A stretch of DNA of 8,495 bases from Gemmatimonadota bacterium (GTDB taxonomy: Bacteria > Gemmatimonadota > Gemmatimonadetes > Gemmatimonadales > GWC2-71-9): NCBI GenBank assembly GCA_003221985.1, contig QHUQ01000190.1, positions 1-8,495 on the forward strand. Direction: 5' to 3'. Positions 2,248-8,186 of this stretch are shown here, piece after piece (position 1 is the first letter of the stretch; the number at the start of each line of letters is the position of its first letter). The notes beneath the pieces are model-generated. The model had not been told where the DNA came from and made no database searches. It was given only the letters and a program-made list of their open reading frames with translations. The position numbers and the translations under genes are program-made.

Positions 2248-3117
2248 CTACGGCAGCTGCCTCACCATGTCGTCGTACGTCTCGGGCCGCCGGTCGCGGA
2301 AAAACTGCCAGGTGCGCCGCACCTCCTCGATCATGTCGAGATTCATCTCGGCGACGACCAGCTCGTCTTTGTCCTCGCTGCCTTGGGCGAGAAAGTTGCC
2401 GCGCGGATCCACGAAGTAACTCGAGCCGTAGAACTGCCCGATGTTCCATGGTGCTTCGCTGCCGACGCGATTGATGCACCCCATGAAGTAGCCGTTCGCC
2501 ACCGCGTGCGCGGGTTGCTCGAGCTTCCAGAGATATTGCGACAGTCCCTTCACCGTCGCGGACGGATTAAACACGATCTCGGCACCGTGCAGGCCGAGCA
2601 GTCGCGCACCCTCGGGGAAGTGACGGTCGTAGCAGATGTACACGCCGATCGTGGCGTAGCGCGTCTTGAAGACCGGATAGCCGAGATTGCCCGGCTTGAA
2701 GAAGAATTTCTCCCAGAAGCCCGCGGTGTGCGGGATGTGGTTCTTGCGGTACTTGCCGAGATAGCTGCCGTCGGCGTCGATCACGGCCGCCGTGTTGTAG
2801 TAGACGCCGGCCATCTCGCGCTCGTAGATCGGCACGATGATCACCATTTCGTGCTTCTTCGCCAGCTTCTGCATCAGCTCGATCGTCGGCCCCGGAATCG
2901 GCTCGGCGATGTCGCACCACTTGGCGTCCTGGCTGGGGCAGAAGTAGGGGCCGTTGAACACCTCCTGCAGGCAGAGCAGCTGCACGCCCTTCTTGCCGGC
3001 TTCCTCTATATAAGGAAGGTGCTTGTCGAGCATCGCCTTGCTGATCTTCTCGACCGATGCTCCCGAGTCGTTGATCGGGTTCGACATCTGGATCAAGCCG
3101 CCGACGACTTTTCTCAT
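2248..3117 (-). CDS. Beta-ureidopropionase (N-carbamoyl-beta-alanine amidohydrolase), nitrilase superfamily
   Basis: A carbon-nitrogen hydrolase that splits N-carbamoyl-beta-alanine or N-carbamoyl-beta-aminoisobutyrate into the beta-amino acid, CO2 and ammonia. Counting from a GTG at 3123, the nitrilase triad is E54 in CLQEVFNGPYF, K127 in GKYRKNHIP and C164 in VYICYDRHFPEGARL. Further family motifs are AEIVFNPSAT, HAVANGYFMGCINRVG and YFVDPRGNFLAQ. I prefer the ATG at 3117 (289 residues, starting MRKVVGGLIQMSNP) over the GTGs at 3123 and 3120. It shares one base with the upstream TGA (TGATG) and has GAGG five bases before it. The RKNHIP and CYDRHFPEGAR wording is that of the animal UPB1-like nitrilase type rather than the M20 amidase type used by many bacteria. 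An N-carbamoyl-D-amino-acid hydrolase is less likely. Confidence 0.93.
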   Translation of the reverse strand: MRKVVGGLIQMSNPINDSGASVEKISKAMLDKHLPYIEEAGKKGVQLLCLQEVFNGPYFCPSQDAKWCDIAEPIPGPTIELMQKLAKKHEMVIIVPIYEREMAGVYYNTAAVIDADGSYLGKYRKNHIPHTAGFWEKFFFKPGNLGYPVFKTRYATIGVYICYDRHFPEGARLLGLHGAEIVFNPSATVKGLSQYLWKLEQPAHAVANGYFMGCINRVGSEAPWNIGQFYGSSYFVDPRGNFLAQGSEDKDELVVAEMNLDMIEEVRRTWQFFRDRRPETYDDMVRQLP

Positions 3118-4427
3118 CACCACCTCGAGATCACGACTTTTTTGTCGGTATAGAAATCAATTGAGTCCTGGCCATGCGCCTTCAGGTCTCCAAAGAACGA
3201 GCCCTTCGTCCCGCCGAACGGGAAGAAGGCCATGGGGGCTGCGACACCGATGTTGACCCCGATCATGCTCACGCCCACCCGATAGCGAAACTCCCGCGCC
3301 GCCTTGCCGCTCTGCGTGAAGATCGACGTCGCATTGGCGAAGCCCGACCGCTGCACCATCTCGATTCCTTCGTCGAGGTTGCTGACGTGCGTGACAGAAG
3401 CGACGGGGCCGAAGATCTCCTCCTTGCCGATCGTCATGTCGGGTTGCACGCCGTCGAACACCGTCGGACCGACGAAATGACCACGCGGGTGTTTCTCGAC
3501 CTTCGTCGCCCGACCATCGAGGAGCAGCGTCGCGCCCTCTTTTCGCCCGGCCTCGACGTACGACAGCACTTTCTCCTTGTGTTTTGCCGAGATGACGGCG
3601 CAGCCGAACAGCGATTCGCTGATATTGGCGACGGCGCGATCCATGTCGGCGTCGGGCATCACGATCACGTGGTTCTTCGCGCCGCCGAGCGCCTGCACGC
3701 GCTTGCCGTACTTCGCGGCTTCCGTGTAGACGTGCCTGGCGACGGGCGAAGAGCCGACGAACGAGATTCCCGCGATACCCGGATGCGCGAGCAGCGCGTT
3801 CACCACGTCCTTGGCGCCGTGCACCATGTTCAACACGCCCGGCGGTATCCCCGCTTCGTGTACGAGCTCCAGAATGCGCGTCGATGAAAACGGCACCTGC
3901 TCACTGGGCTTGAGCACAAACGTGTTGCCGGTCGCGATCGCGTACGGCCAAAACCAGCAGGGCACCATCGCGGGGAAGTTGAACGGCGTGATCGCGGCGA
4001 AGACGCCCAACGGTTGGCGGACGTATTCGCAGTCGATCCCTGCCGCGACGTCCTCGAGCGCTTTGCCCATCATCAGCGTCGGGATGCCGCACGCGTGCTC
4101 GACGTTCTCAATCGCGCGCCGCACCGACCCTCGGGACTCGTCGAGCGTCTTGCCGTGCTCACGCGTCACCGTCGCGGCGAGGTCCTCGAATTGCTGATCC
4201 ATAAGGAACTTCAACTTGAACAGGTAACGGGCGCGGACGACCGGCGGAACTTCACGCCATTTCAGAAAAGCGGTTTGCGCGGCGCTGACCGCGGCATCGA
4301 CGTCGCGCGCACCCGAGAGCGGCACCTTGCCGAGCTGCTCGCCGGTCGCGGGGTTCGTCAGATCGAGGTAATCGGCGGCGGAGGGTGCAATCCACTCCCC
4401 GCCGATGTAGTTGCGGAGGGTTTTCAT
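3117..4427 (-). CDS. mmsA: CoA-acylating methylmalonate/malonate-semialdehyde dehydrogenase, with internal loss of the catalytic-cysteine segment
   Basis: In intact form this enzyme oxidises malonate or methylmalonate semialdehyde with NAD+ and CoA to acetyl- or propionyl-CoA, the last step of the pathway. Family motifs: LRNYIGGEW at the N-terminus, ITPFNFPAMVP (N150), VLKPSEQVP (K173), FVGSSPVARHVY, LGGAKNH (this subgroup lacks the usual ALDH glutamate), EEIFGPV (336-342) and PFGGTKGS (403-410). The length is only 436 residues against roughly 480-500 in the family. At residues 274-280 the protein reads FGCA-VIS. Relatives have FGCAGQRCLA, about 40 more residues, then GPVIS. The missing stretch holds the catalytic cysteine, yet the frame stays open and both flanks look normal. 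As written, the protein should bind NAD+ poorly or not catalyse at all. An assembly deletion is the alternative. The ATG is preceded directly by an inverted repeat with no well-spaced ribosome binding site. Confidence 0.9.
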   Translation of the reverse strand: MKTLRNYIGGEWIAPSAADYLDLTNPATGEQLGKVPLSGARDVDAAVSAAQTAFLKWREVPPVVRARYLFKLKFLMDQQFEDLAATVTREHGKTLDESRGSVRRAIENVEHACGIPTLMMGKALEDVAAGIDCEYVRQPLGVFAAITPFNFPAMVPCWFWPYAIATGNTFVLKPSEQVPFSSTRILELVHEAGIPPGVLNMVHGAKDVVNALLAHPGIAGISFVGSSPVARHVYTEAAKYGKRVQALGGAKNHVIVMPDADMDRAVANISESLFGCAVISAKHKEKVLSYVEAGRKEGATLLLDGRATKVEKHPRGHFVGPTVFDGVQPDMTIGKEEIFGPVASVTHVSNLDEGIEMVQRSGFANATSIFTQSGKAAREFRYRVGVSMIGVNIGVAAPMAFFPFGGTKGSFFGDLKAHGQDSIDFYTDKKVVISRW

Positions 4428-4476: not shown

Positions 4477-5484
4477 TTACAGCGCGGGCACGGCATTCTC
4501 CTCGATCTCGAACCGAACGGTGACCTGGCGCAGCCGGCGATACACCGGCATGACCAGATGTAGCTGTGGATCGAAGTAGTCCCTGAGCATCGGGGGTCGC
4601 GGATGCTTGAGGTAGGCGTCGGGATTCTTTCGGACCTCGGTGGCGGCCACCGCATCCACCTCGTCCCGGGACGCGCAGTGCTGAATGATGCACGGGACGT
4701 GCGTGACGCCCAGCTGGCGGAGCGCGTAGGCTCGATGGCTGCCGTTGTTCAACACGAGCCGCTTCTCCGCATACACGGCGTTGAGGAAATTGGAGCCGAG
4801 GCCGACGGCGATCCCGACGAGTCCCACGAACTTGCCCCGTGCCGGATAGTCCTTGATCTGATCGCGTTGCAGCGGCACCGCCCCGAGAAACCGCAGGTCA
4901 TTCGACGGGGACACAAAGACGAACCGGTCGTGCTGCACGCGGGACCACCTCACGGGCGGCTCGTCGTGATCGTGCAGCAGGCAGGTGCGAAACACCTGCT
5001 CGTCGCCCGGCGTCCGTCCACCGTTCCCCAGACTGGTTGCGAGCTGCCGCACGTACGTCAGGTCGATGTGCTTCTGGTACACGACCAGCCGATCCAGCTC
5101 GACGAAGGCGACGTCAGTGGGGACGGTGTTGAACCCGTCGCGCACCAATGGGTCCCGGAACAGCTCGATCAGGAGAGGCTCGTATTTCGATCCCAGCGGG
5201 CGCATGGGCGGGTCATCGGCCAACCCCGCCTCCTCCGTCTCGAGACGGCGGACGCGCTCATGGGCGCTCTGCCACGCAGCGACGAGGGCCGGTTCGTCGG
5301 GCGGCGTCACGGCGTGACTGCGGGCGAAACGGACCAGGTCTCGCATCCGTGGGCGGCCCGTCAAATAGAGGTATTCGTCCGGCCGGGGGGCGGGGGCGGG
5401 GGCGGGGGCGGGCCGTGCGTCGGACGGCGCAGGATCCGGACGCGCGACCGGTGCGACGGCGACGGCTCTGGATTTCACCACCAT
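4477..5484 (-). CDS. ParB/Srx-like-motif protein of unknown function, linked to the M50-HlyD exporter gene
   Basis: A 335-residue soluble protein that I cannot assign to a named family. The N-terminal 36 residues are Pro/Ala-rich (PAPAPAPAP at 25-33), probably a flexible tail. A helical part follows at about 62-85 (WQSAHERVRRLETEEAG). VAFVELDRLVVYQKHIDL (126-142) and NNGSHRAYALRQLGVTHVPCII (246-267) resemble the paired motifs of the ParB/sulfiredoxin fold; the second is like the G-x-H/R-R nucleotide-binding box of ParB and of the free-serine kinases SerK/SbnI. Residues 270-335 have no motif I recognise. The ATG at 5484 overlaps the end of the exporter gene by 10 bases and has GGAG eight bases upstream, so the two are almost certainly co-expressed. 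A nucleotide-using enzyme acting on the small peptide (for example a kinase) is a hypothesis; a DNA-binding role is not supported by context. Confidence 0.75.
   Translation of the reverse strand: MVVKSRAVAVAPVARPDPAPSDARPAPAPAPAPRPDEYLYLTGRPRMRDLVRFARSHAVTPPDEPALVAAWQSAHERVRRLETEEAGLADDPPMRPLGSKYEPLLIELFRDPLVRDGFNTVPTDVAFVELDRLVVYQKHIDLTYVRQLATSLGNGGRTPGDEQVFRTCLLHDHDEPPVRWSRVQHDRFVFVSPSNDLRFLGAVPLQRDQIKDYPARGKFVGLVGIAVGLGSNFLNAVYAEKRLVLNNGSHRAYALRQLGVTHVPCIIQHCASRDEVDAVAATEVRKNPDAYLKHPRPPMLRDYFDPQLHLVMPVYRRLRQVTVRFEIEENAVPAL
5385..5412 (+). repeat. Tandem GGGGGC tract with G-quadruplex potential
   Basis: Five G-runs of 6, 5, 5, 5 and 3 bases, each separated by a single C, lie on the plus strand. 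This fits the simple rule for intramolecular G-quadruplexes (four runs of three or more G with short loops). It is the template strand for the minus-strand gene and encodes the alternating Ala-Pro tail of the ParB/Srx-like protein. The near-perfect hexanucleotide unit suggests growth by replication slippage; whole-unit changes keep the frame and only change the length of the Ala-Pro linker. Confidence 0.8.
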
Positions 5485-7907
5485 GACCAGAACTCCACTT
5501 TGAACGTGCGCGCCAGGCGTCGCGTGATCAGCCCGATGATACGTCGCTCGCCCGCGTAGATCTTGCCCTGGCCCGTCATCCCCGGCTTCAGGAGCAGGTC
5601 GCGATTGTCGATCCGTGTCGTCACCACAAACGTCCGGGGGGATCCAGCGCTGCTGCTCACTGACGTGCTGGTGCTGCTGCTGCTCCCGCTGGACGTTCCG
5701 CTCACCGTCGTCTGCAAGCCGGACTGGGGTGTCCCTTCGATCGCCACGGCCGTCACGGTGCCCCGGAACGCGATGTCGGGGTAGGCGCGTACCCGGAGCG
5801 CGACCGGCTGGCCCGCCCGGACGTCGGCGATTTCCTTCTCCGAAACGATCAGCTGAGCGCGCACCGTGCTGAAGTCATACACCTTGGCGATCAGGGCGCC
5901 CTGCGTGACCAGTTGGCCGCGCATCTCCCGCAGCTGGCGCGACGGCGTTGCGACGATCCCGTCGGCCGGGCTGACCACGGTCAGCAAGCGGACTTCTCCT
6001 GCGAGGAAGCGCTGTTGATGTTCGAGCGCCGCCAGCTTTGCGCGCGCCGACTCGAGGTCCTCCGGGCGGACGCGCGCGTAGAGCATGGCAAGCCGCCCGC
6101 GAGCGTCGTCGCGGTCGTGCCGGGCTGCCGCAAGCTGGTCTTGCGCGGCTTGCAGCTCCTGGCGGGTCGCTGCCCCGGTTTCGAACAGGCGCGCGAAGCG
6201 CGCAGCGTTCTCCTCGGCGGAGCGGAACCGGTCGTCGACCCTGGCCACCGCGACCTCGTTCAGCGTGACCTCTTCGGGCGCAGGACCCTTTTCAGCTTTC
6301 TTGAGCTGGGCGCGCGTATCCTCGATCGACGCTTCGGTCTGGTGCAGCTGGGCCAGGGTCGCGGCGTTCGACAGCCGCGCGATCACATCGCCCGCCCGGA
6401 CTGGGTCGCCCTCGTCCACCAGGATGTCATCGACGATCCCATCGACCGGCGCCCGCACATCGGCGTTCTGCTCGGGGAGCACGGACACCGGGCCGCCGAT
6501 GCGCAGCTGCACGGGAACGAAGGCCGCCACCAGGGCGGCCGTCACCGCGAGAACCGTCCACTTCACCCTCGGCGACCAGCCGGGCCGGCGCGCGGCGGGG
6601 GGGGGGGGAGAGGACGGGCCGGTCGCGGCCTGTGCCGCGGCGGGATTCGTTCCGTTCTCCGGCGGCGACGGCGTGTCGACGTCGTCAGCGCCGTCGTCGC
6701 CGTCGTCCTCGGGATCGTTGGGGCGGGCCGCTCCGCCGAACAGCTTGCGCAGCTTGCGCCGCGACTTGGTGCCGGTGAGACCCGCGAAGACGAGGAGGGC
6801 CCACGACTGGTGGGTCTCGATCAGGTAACCGCCTGCCGTGACCACCACGTAGCCCAGGATGGAGAGCGAGGTGACCGAGCCTGCTAATCCATAGGCGAGA
6901 TAGACCCAGCGTTCGCGCGGTGAAGGATCCGTGACGATGCGCTGACTCGCGCCCACGAGACGCTTGACCAGGCCCCCGACATACCGAAACGATCGCTTTC
7001 TCAGGTTGGGCAGCTCCAGGTAGTCGCTCAGCAGGTAATAGCCGTCGAGCTTGATGAAGGGGTTCAGGTTGAAGAGCGTCTTGATGCCCGACAGGGTCAT
7101 GACCAGCAGCGCGGCGTAGTTGATGCGCGTGTCGACGTCCGTCACGCGCCAGGCCAGGGTGGCGAGCGCCCAGAGAAACAGCTCGAAGTAGGGCCCGGCA
7201 AAGCCGACCCACAGGCGTTTCGCCTTCTCCGGGAAAAGCCATGCATCGCTCACGTTCGTGTAGAACGAGGGCGTGAAGTAGATCAGCAGGAAGCCGAGGT
7301 CGTGCACCTCGCCCCCGAACCGCTTGCACGTGAGCCCGTGGGCGAACTCGTGCGCCGCCGCCAATCCGAGGCTGACCAGGAGGAACAGCGGAATCGACGA
7401 CAGGCGGTATAGCCGCGACAGGTCCGCGCGGATATCGCTCCAGCCGAAGAGCGTGAGCCCTGTTGCGAAGACGATGAGCGCCGCCGACAGAACCAGGAAC
7501 TGTGGCGTGAAGCAGAAGCGTACCCGGTGCACCAGACGGTTGAAGAGTCGATCCGGGTCGAGCAGCCGGAACCGGAGGTACAGCAGGCTGCCTCGCATCC
7601 GCCGGTGCGAGTTCGCTGAGTCCGCCGCGTCGTCTTGGCCTTCCAGGAGACCGCTCTTTGTGAGCTTTTTGACGAACACGGCGAGGGCGTCGGCCGGGAG
7701 CGAAGCGTCGAAGCGCGCCTCCGCTCGTTGCCGCACCACCTCGAGCGGTGTTTCGCCGTCGAGCTGATCGGCGATGAACTGCTCGAGCTCGCCGAACCGA
7801 AAGAACTTGCCGGAGCGTGAATCTTTGACGACGTACCGCGTCGTGCCGGCTGCCTGCTGCTGGCTGACCGTCAGGTCGCTTCGGAGTTTCGGCGGAGCAG
7901 AACGCAC
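5475..7907 (-). CDS. PqqD-like / M50 zinc metalloprotease / HlyD adaptor fusion, putative peptide processing and export protein
   Basis: An 810-residue three-part inner-membrane protein. Residues about 10-90 look like a PqqD-type peptide-binding domain (RYVVKDSRSGKFFRF, then DQLDGETPLEVVRQ and a C-terminal GLLEG). Residues 105-365 form a multi-helix core with the M50 motifs HEFAH (186-190) and NPFIKLDGYYLLSDY (283-297, third metal ligand D288), as in putative peptide zinc metalloproteases next to peptide exporters. An acidic and Pro-rich linker (399-441) follows, then a membrane helix (449-467). The rest is a HlyD adaptor: lipoyl half-motifs ADVRAPVDGIVDDILVDEGD (482-501) and VVSPADGIVATP (644-655) flank a coiled-coil hairpin (about 516-642), and the C-terminal beta domain ends in LLLKPGMTGQGKI. 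A Ser-rich insert (736-756) interrupts that domain. The start codon is GTG with no clear ribosome binding site. The likely role is recognising, cleaving and exporting the upstream small peptide; no ATPase or outer-membrane channel gene is in view. Confidence 0.9.
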   Translation of the reverse strand: MRSAPPKLRSDLTVSQQQAAGTTRYVVKDSRSGKFFRFGELEQFIADQLDGETPLEVVRQRAEARFDASLPADALAVFVKKLTKSGLLEGQDDAADSANSHRRMRGSLLYLRFRLLDPDRLFNRLVHRVRFCFTPQFLVLSAALIVFATGLTLFGWSDIRADLSRLYRLSSIPLFLLVSLGLAAAHEFAHGLTCKRFGGEVHDLGFLLIYFTPSFYTNVSDAWLFPEKAKRLWVGFAGPYFELFLWALATLAWRVTDVDTRINYAALLVMTLSGIKTLFNLNPFIKLDGYYLLSDYLELPNLRKRSFRYVGGLVKRLVGASQRIVTDPSPRERWVYLAYGLAGSVTSLSILGYVVVTAGGYLIETHQSWALLVFAGLTGTKSRRKLRKLFGGAARPNDPEDDGDDGADDVDTPSPPENGTNPAAAQAATGPSSPPPPAARRPGWSPRVKWTVLAVTAALVAAFVPVQLRIGGPVSVLPEQNADVRAPVDGIVDDILVDEGDPVRAGDVIARLSNAATLAQLHQTEASIEDTRAQLKKAEKGPAPEEVTLNEVAVARVDDRFRSAEENAARFARLFETGAATRQELQAAQDQLAAARHDRDDARGRLAMLYARVRPEDLESARAKLAALEHQQRFLAGEVRLLTVVSPADGIVATPSRQLREMRGQLVTQGALIAKVYDFSTVRAQLIVSEKEIADVRAGQPVALRVRAYPDIAFRGTVTAVAIEGTPQSGLQTTVSGTSSGSSSSTSTSVSSSAGSPRTFVVTTRIDNRDLLLKPGMTGQGKIYAGERRIIGLITRRLARTFKVEFWSWW
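6597..6608 (+). repeat. 12-base homopolymer (poly-C in the coding strand) inside the exporter gene
   Basis: Twelve consecutive G on the plus strand read as exactly four CCC codons (PPPP, residues 434-437) in the linker between the protease core and the HlyD part. Gain or loss of one base would shift the frame and leave the PqqD-M50 half without its adaptor. Such tracts can act as slippage switches and are also prone to sequencing error. Confidence 0.85.
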
Positions 7908-7922
7908 GGCGTCGGTGGAAGG

Positions 7923-7945
7923 CCGCGGGAACTGCTGTCCCGCGG
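7923..7945 (-). terminator. GC-rich hairpin between small peptide gene and exporter gene (candidate attenuator)
   Basis: The 57-base gap between the two genes holds an 8-bp perfect stem, CCGCGGGA (7923-7930) and TCCCGCGG (7938-7945), with a 7-base loop. No U-run follows in the minus-strand transcript, so it is more likely a partial stop or an mRNA-stabilising 3' stem for the peptide message than a full intrinsic terminator. Together with the weak translation start of the exporter, it would favour many peptide copies per exporter. Confidence 0.55.
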
Positions 7946-7965
7946 TCTTCCGTTACTCCGAGACG

Positions 7966-8172
7966 CTACGAGCTACAGCTCTCGGCACTCTTGCTCTTGG
8001 AGGTCTTCGTGCCTGACGCGCTACTGCCGTCGCAGCTGCGCTCGGAGCTGCCGCTGCCACCGTCACCGCTGCTCTGGCACCCGATGGTGATGCCCAAGGC
8101 GGGCAAGGAGACGCCCAAACACGGTGCAACGCGCTCCTCGAGACGCTCCAGCTGGGGATTCAGGTGTCTCAT
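7966..8172 (-). CDS. Small Ser/Gly/Cys-rich peptide, candidate substrate of the adjacent protease-exporter
   Basis: A 68-residue peptide beginning MRHLNPQLERLEERVAPCLG, with a leader-like half and a very different second half. Residues 1-14 are charged and helix-prone. Residues 15-31 are hydrophobic (VAPCLGVSLPALGITIG). Residues 33-68 are hydrophilic: 15 Ser, 2 Thr and several Gly and Lys in 36 residues, ending SCSS. Cysteines are at 18, 32, 47 and 66. The ATG at 8172 is fixed by a full AGGAGG eight bases upstream. Its position right before a PqqD-M50-HlyD gene suggests a ribosomally made secreted peptide that is processed and exported by that protein; Ser, Thr and Cys would be the natural modification sites. 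An alternative is a short lipoprotein, since TIGC at 29-32 after the hydrophobic stretch loosely resembles a lipobox. The LEERVAP N-terminus recalls, from memory only, short motifs at the N-termini of planctomycete-type surface proteins. Confidence 0.78.
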   Translation of the reverse strand: MRHLNPQLERLEERVAPCLGVSLPALGITIGCQSSGDGGSGSSERSCDGSSASGTKTSKSKSAESCSS

Positions 8173-8180
8173 TTGCTTCT

Positions 8181-8186
8181 CCTCCT
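8181..8186 (-). promoter_or_regulatory. Strong ribosome binding site of the small peptide gene
   Basis: The minus strand reads AGGAGG followed by eight bases and ATG. It is the best Shine-Dalgarno match in the window and supports the small gene as truly translated at high level. Confidence 0.85.

Follow-up and report, generated by a model that had tools for sequence, protein, structure and literature searches.

Organization of the locus

The window analyzed here (8,495 nucleotides of contig QHUQ01000190.1, from the Gemmatimonadota bacterium assembly GCA_003221985.1) contains a cassette of three reverse-strand genes encoding a 68 aa peptide with a conserved leader, an 810 aa protein in which a PqqD-like recognition element (RRE) for ribosomally synthesized and post-translationally modified peptides (RiPPs) is predicted to precede an M50 site-2 protease and a HlyD-type adaptor, and a third protein of the ParB/sulfiredoxin (ParB/Srx) fold. 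This cassette is real and conserved, and it likely processes and exports its peptide, with a single fusion protein probably recognizing, cutting and handing it outward. Its features, all on the reverse strand, are as follows.

8181-8185, reverse: ribosome binding site GGAGG, strong, 8 nt ahead of the peptide ATG
7966-8172, reverse: precursor peptide gene, 68 aa
8122-8172, reverse: leader region, 17 aa, MRHLNPQLERLEERVAP, with the motif LERLEERVAP (family form LExLEeRIAP)
7969-8121, reverse: predicted core, 51 aa, Ser/Gly/Cys-rich, a short hydrophobic stretch LGVSLPALGITIGC followed by a Ser-rich tail
5475-7907, reverse: fusion gene (RRE-M50-HlyD), 810 aa, GTG start
7638-7898, reverse: RRE (PqqD-like) domain, residues 4-90
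6741-7556, reverse: putative M50 site-2-protease module, residues about 118-389 (daptide_HExxH match at residues 8-362; Peptidase_M50)
7338-7352, reverse: HEFAH zinc/catalytic motif, residues 186-190
7041-7064, reverse: NPFIKLDG, second M50 motif, residues 282-289
6573-6740, reverse: acidic, Pro-rich linker of low model confidence, residues 390-445 (predicted local distance difference test score <50 at 399-435 and 437-444)
5541-6518, reverse: HlyD/EmrA-type periplasmic adaptor, residues about 464-789
5478-5540, reverse: C-terminal helix ending FWSWW (FWSWW at 5478-5492)
5475-5484, reverse: overlap of fusion and third genes, 10 nt
4477-5484, reverse: third gene, ParB/sulfiredoxin-fold product, 335 aa
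4732-4743, reverse: GSHR motif of the third protein, residues 248-251

A first-pass annotation, made from the letters of this DNA alone, had described a 68-residue leader/core peptide behind a strong ribosome binding site, and the open reading frame (ORF) was found where it had put it, with GGAGG ahead of the ATG. It had also reported that the third gene overlaps the fusion gene, which it does by 10 nt; the same offset recurs in 5 of 23 other assessed loci. The span given for the cassette, 5475..8172, places the genes correctly but stops at 5475 and so misses the third gene (4477-5484) almost entirely. Two possible slippage sites were noted, a run of 12 G at 6597-6608 in the fusion linker and GGGGGC repeats at about 5379-5412, at the start of the third gene.

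The precursor peptide and its leader family

On sequence grounds the small ORF is not a chance reading frame, because the protein database holds a near-identical 69 aa protein (P0258, 96% identical over the full length) and because most ORFs with its leader motif lie upstream of the exporter on the same strand. We fetched 46 loci by the fusion protein alone which, together with the window, gave 47 loci (633,224 bases), so that the adjoining peptides constitute independent evidence. A strict regular expression for the leader, applied to six-frame ORFs, yielded 69 matches. In 39 of the 47 loci such matches, 62 altogether, precede the exporter by at most 1.6 kb on its own strand. Among the other eight loci, the L003 peptide sits just inside an exporter start called too early, L039, L041 and L046 have peptide versions of 22-26 aa downstream instead of upstream, and in L020, L042 and L045 the exporter ORF is truncated or broken; L040 alone showed no leader peptide by the strict expression.

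Conservation is concentrated in the leader, and the expectation of a conserved N-terminus with a variable C-terminal half held: LExLEeRIAP recurs across these loci, and the cores behind it differ. In 80 peptides collected by regular expression from two locus sets, the L and E of LE.R are invariant (80/80 each), with R in 79/80 and P in 78/80, where the expression allowed L/M/V at L and E/D/K at E and fixed A; columns after the leader P carry 0.95-1.76 bits. Of 7980 proteins scored with a profile of 25 peptides, 3855 matched at E<=10, and a leader motif of this kind was present in 120/120 among the matches listed, which, the profile having been seeded with the motif, speaks for abundance and not for independent conservation. 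Each NCBIfam or Pfam model matched at most one of the 25 peptides.

Two styles of core can be distinguished. Most type A cores are rich in Ser, accompanied by Gly, Lys, His or Cys (SKSHGSKSHGSK; the window version is SSERSCDGSSASGTKTSKSKSAESCSS, the core there containing four Cys in total). Type B cores are Asn/Pro/Gly-rich, come as one to five peptides per locus, and contain blocks, such as NPGNNNPPLNNTNNPGNEGTGGQVSTG, common to metagenome-assembled genomes (MAGs) labelled as different phyla; several peptides with near-identical blocks across phylum labels were seen in L014, L017, L018, L027, L030, L036, L043 and L133. Two further arrangements were observed. At six loci of the G001 phylum sample (L102, L104, L108, L109, L111, L113), peptides situated 2-7 kb ahead of the distant exporter have a longer leader, with an end resembling ELSVEELEERIAP, and behind it only 3-10 residues, and L117 and L118 carry three and four near-identical 31 aa copies of MAKKSTKKVVKLNVERLEKRIAPTRAAIAMG, on the opposite strand and downstream of the exporter.

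The fusion protein

The proposal that a PqqD-like domain, HEFAH and HlyD are joined in one chain was borne out by Pfam and NCBIfam matches, by the motifs at residues 186-190 and 282-289, and by the predicted RRE fold. Pfam PqqD reaches only E 0.2 on the window protein, but it matches 14 of 30 N-terminal fragments of the family at E<=0.01 (best 3.4e-6), with no other Pfam family at that level, and the predicted model of the fusion N-terminus matches lasso-peptide RREs. Absence of a PqqD-like fold, which the first-pass annotation had named as counter-evidence to its reading, is hence not what the models indicate.

The identity of the M50 module is suggested by sequence matches and motifs: Pfam Peptidase_M50 at E 1.2e-5, just below its cutoff, and a stronger NCBIfam match discussed below. 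In 69 aligned rows, window included, H186 (69/69), E187 (68/69), H190 (68/69), P283 (69/69) and D288 (69/69) are conserved, as are W807 (68/69) and W809 (67/69) of the terminal helix; the row deviating in HEFAH, L012, was translated across a frameshift. In that locus (L012:7202-9535) the exporter is split over two frames, through an assembly error or in reality, and upstream of it is an ORF for a class-V aminotransferase. The HlyD part matches Pfam HlyD_D23 (E 7e-19) and shows the barrel-sandwich and hairpin of an adaptor fold.

The third gene and its association with Ser-rich cores

Of 7990 sequences scored in a homology search with the third protein, 1339 are relatives at E<=1e-3. Its predicted model supports the ParB/Srx-like nature proposed earlier: fold comparison gave middling Z scores and no Foldseek match at E<=0.001, and the rows shown agree on ParB/Srx. 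The GSHR motif is nearly invariant in its family (G 58/58, S 55/58, H 58/58, R 58/58). In sulfiredoxin the catalytic Cys lies in GCHR; here that position is Ser in 55/58 and Cys in 0/58, and the protein was rejected as a sulfiredoxin. The NCBIfam model for SerK gave no significant match (E 0.094), and two matches to Cap5F among PDB sequences (E 0.14) were taken as chance.

Weak relatives of the third protein occur in vitamin B12 operons, in 6/6 acidobacterial loci (L141-L146; L150:5321-6190), between cobC and pduO/bluB, the spot where a threonine kinase would be expected. These ParB/Srx-like relatives are candidates for the L-threonine kinase of acidobacterial B12 synthesis. By analogy, the third protein, as a nucleotide-binding-fold protein, may be a kinase; the B12-operon relatives are the only, and indirect, pointer to Ser/Thr phosphotransfer.

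An exporter tree was inferred from 71 of 83 exporters (12 under 650 aa were left out) in a short search with support from the Shimodaira-Hasegawa-like approximate likelihood ratio test only. It places the exporters followed by a third gene in a single clade of 24 rows (support 95), of which 22 have the third gene; the other two are L019, cut by a contig end, and L007, which has no third gene and a core of 7% Ser. Five further loci with a third gene (L020, L033, L042, L044, L045) were left out of the tree, and the L033 protein is only 28% identical to that of the window. The idea that the three genes stay together in other genomes thus stands for this clade, but not beyond it, where exporters have no third gene behind them. 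The type A rows carry MAG labels of seven phyla (Gemmatimonadota, Acidobacteriota, Verrucomicrobiota, Actinomycetota, Nitrospirota, Bacteroidota and Ignavibacteriota), the Actinomycetota-labelled L004 being a near copy of a Gemmatimonadota locus.

Presence of the third gene coincides with a Ser-rich core (21/2 against 1/22; Fisher p 1.5e-9, or 1.7e-8 with near-duplicates removed) in the 46 assessable of 51 peptide loci, five having been dropped for too short a downstream sequence; Ser-rich was defined by a threshold of our choosing (S>=0.15 and S>N+0.05). Because the tree amounts to about one gain and one joint loss, these p values overstate the link.

Near type A cassettes we also observed a FemAB-family gene in 7/47 loci and a protein of about 225 aa, oxygenase-looking by eye, in 6/47; the two share L013, L022, L023, L024, L028 and L035, with FemAB alone in L001. 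The oxygenase-looking protein has no Pfam or NCBIfam match at E<=0.5. FemAB showed no significant link to Lys-rich cores (4/3 against 6/13, p 0.37), and the two genes are therefore not claimed for the system. No other gene family recurs near the cassette in more than 7/47 loci, save one scattered cluster in 15.

Distribution across genomes

The family, common by the database count of its peptides, spans several phyla of poorly cultured soil bacteria, as judged by MAG label. In even samples of three phyla, in which scoring was confined to the top few candidates of each genome and seeds were included, an exporter at E<=1e-50 was found in 16/200, 19/247 and 1/240 genomes, the sole case in the last sample (the phylum of G006) being the seed itself. 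The closest named relatives are from Gemmatimonadota, with P0021 (Gemmatimonadales) 72% identical and L012 in a Gemmatimonadetes MAG.

A proposed route for the peptide, and alternatives

Computation supports the architecture, the leader common to the family, the joint inheritance of the three genes within one clade, and the RRE, adaptor and ParB/Srx folds; from these we infer leader binding, a cut site, the direction of transport and, above all, a chemistry for the third protein. In the scheme we propose, the 68 aa precursor would be made, and the RRE domain of the fusion would bind its leader LERLEERVAP in the cytosol. The ParB/Srx-fold protein would then act on the Ser-rich core, most likely by nucleotide-driven phosphorylation of Ser/Thr, the least certain step. 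At the inner membrane the M50 module would remove the leader by cutting at or just after Ala-Pro, a position suggested by the P(-1) numbering of daptides (PMC10036551), and the core would then be passed on, first to the HlyD/EmrA-like portion of that chain and next to an outer-membrane channel encoded elsewhere. We regard such a leader-dependent, RiPP-type secreted-peptide system, with all four steps and core phosphorylation included, as moderately probable.

Weighing against this scheme is the existence of exporters without a small peptide, which the first-pass annotation had named as a finding that would count against it. We inspected 38 further regions, most of them from two of the phylum samples and consisting of the sample exporters and two more (two of the regions being copies of L008 and L003). 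A RIAP peptide occurs anywhere in the region in 16 and in none of the other 22. Two of the peptide-less regions, L106 and L130, start at the exporter, in L130 at a contig edge. Against the window protein L130 reaches 579 bits, while the remaining 21 exporters range over 177-349, all below 350 bits, so that the objection concerns far relatives only, and seven peptide-bearing exporters score as low (207-253 bits). Within the window's clade the peptide is present in 23 of 24 tree rows, the 24th being L130. The leader peptide is thus a trait of a large part of the family and not of all PqqD-M50-HlyD proteins.

Recognition, cleavage and export could proceed in the same way on a core that stays unmodified, with the third protein serving as a nucleotide-dependent switch, chaperone or regulator. 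The ParB-type fold is described as a nucleoside triphosphate-binding switch (PMC12704722), the leader peptide also accompanies exporters beyond the clade that have no third gene behind them, and L007 keeps peptide and exporter without it. The link of the third gene to Ser-rich cores, with adjacency in 5/5 sampled cases, and the B12-operon relatives, which point to an enzyme acting on a small hydroxy amino acid, speak for modification, and we consider an unmodified core a serious but less probable alternative. The third protein might instead catalyze another nucleotide-dependent reaction, such as adenylylation or a sulfiredoxin-like reduction or repair of Cys, for which the core Cys would be possible targets; given the Ser that replaces the sulfiredoxin Cys in its family and the Cys-free cores at several third-gene loci (e.g. 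L009, L011, L026), this appears improbable. A slightly fainter prospect is that the peptide is a regulator or signal consumed by the protease in regulated intramembrane proteolysis, the HlyD half exporting something else. Members with just 3-10 residues past RIAP, several of them beside ORFs that look by eye like regulators (L104, L109, L113), fit such a role, but the cores of the window's clade are long, constrained and often repetitive in composition, as expected of a product. That the fusion is an ordinary multidrug-efflux adaptor beside a spurious ORF, as names like 'multidrug resistance efflux pump', given to some relatives in the source records, would have it, is contradicted by the RRE fold and by the conserved leader ORF upstream in 39/47 loci, and is hardly credible.

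Should the phosphorylating scheme hold, it might extend to a widespread group of ribosomal phosphopeptides, in which cores rich in Ser/Lys/Gly/His and often repetitive (GSKSHGSKSHGSK-like) would be phosphorylated by a kinase of the ParB/sulfiredoxin fold and then trimmed and exported by the RRE-protease-adaptor, with a FemAB-like transferase and an oxygenase-looking protein modifying them further at some loci. Such peptides would be matrix- or mineral-organizing products of soil bacteria, comparable to the silaffins of diatoms, a possibility that we hold to be doubtful. If the scheme itself is true, leader recognition, leader removal and hand-over to an export adaptor take place within one polypeptide, and the order of RiPP maturation steps becomes directly testable in one protein. 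The third gene would in that case give the ParB/Srx fold a peptide substrate, alongside the candidacy of its distant relatives as threonine kinases in acidobacterial B12 synthesis.

Genomic context of the window

To the left of the cassette lie a methylmalonate-semialdehyde-dehydrogenase-like gene, a nitrilase-family hydrolase, a PEMT/ICMT-like methyltransferase and a dihydropyrimidinase, with a class-III aminotransferase (PF00202, daptide type) at the far left, clipped by the window end. The methyltransferase and aminotransferase lie 2-4 kb past the end of the third gene amid catabolic genes, did not recur beside the cassette in other loci by ORF clustering, and are taken as unrelated to it. 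Two stretches of the aldehyde-dehydrogenase-like ORF at 3117-4427 (436 aa) match TIGR01722 (477 positions), and the segment around the usual catalytic Cys was not seen by eye. No pump gene was found among the window ORFs scanned with Pfam and NCBIfam, nor any Rfam match to the window at gathering score; upstream of the peptide, 323 bp of sequence are readable.

Comparison with known systems

The three-part combination was not found described in the literature searched, which mostly excluded subscription papers, and the leader strings LEERIAP, EERIAP and LEQRIAP returned there only fungal and palynology papers, by title. The main text of the RRE-Finder paper reports new RRE fusions with glycosyltransferase and glutathione S-transferase and contains no M50, HlyD or protease.

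Individual components have recognizable counterparts. The epipeptide metalloproteases YydH and LiaK are likewise M50-like RiPP proteases, but their NCBIfam match is weak (E 6.2e-9; score 35.9 against a cutoff of 225). The absence of radical SAM enzymes from view, claimed earlier, also sets these loci apart and was upheld by regular expression only, CxxxCxxC being found in 0/360 selected ORFs above 200 aa and in 1/549 of all ORFs from the 47 loci, with little upstream sequence in the window. His-Xaa-Ser repeat peptides are partners of radical SAM enzymes; a match to HxsA4 (E 6e-4) was obtained for one of the 25 family peptides, presumably through its Ser/His repeats. Unlike lasso-peptide B1 proteins and other RREs, the RRE here belongs to a membrane protease-adaptor chain, and unlike EmrA, MacA and HlyD, the adaptor is membrane-anchored via the RRE-protease. 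Compared with the SerK and SbnI kinases and with sulfiredoxin, the third protein has an extra N-terminal helical region and lacks the sulfiredoxin Cys.

The statement that the cassette fits no RiPP class did not survive comparison with the daptides, which its RRE-protease half and leader motif closely parallel. Daptides have an RRE fused N-terminally to a site-2 protease (MpaP), short precursors (MpaA) with the leader motif ELExMEAP, and an invariant C-terminal Thr (PMC10036551). The RRE is likewise N-terminal to the predicted site-2 protease here, NCBIfam daptide_HExxH (NF041824) matches the fusion at E 6.4e-61 (score 206.6, below the cutoff of 300), some members have an aliphatic stretch behind the leader motif, and some loci have several precursors. 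The leaders (RLEERVAP in the window, ELEERIAP or KLEQRIAP in the family) share L, E and AP with ELExMEAP, but not M(-4) and E(-3). It is chiefly this likeness, with Ala-Pro closing both motifs, that leads us to expect recognition and cleavage behind Ala-Pro. Membership among the daptides was rejected, as the window peptide ends in SCSS without a C-terminal Thr and the score is under the cutoff; the genes directly adjoining the peptide gene, those of the fusion and the third protein, are not daptide enzymes either. As judged from sequence, the system is a relative of the RRE-site-2-protease kind, set apart by the joining of its protease to a HlyD adaptor, by its cores and by its third gene.
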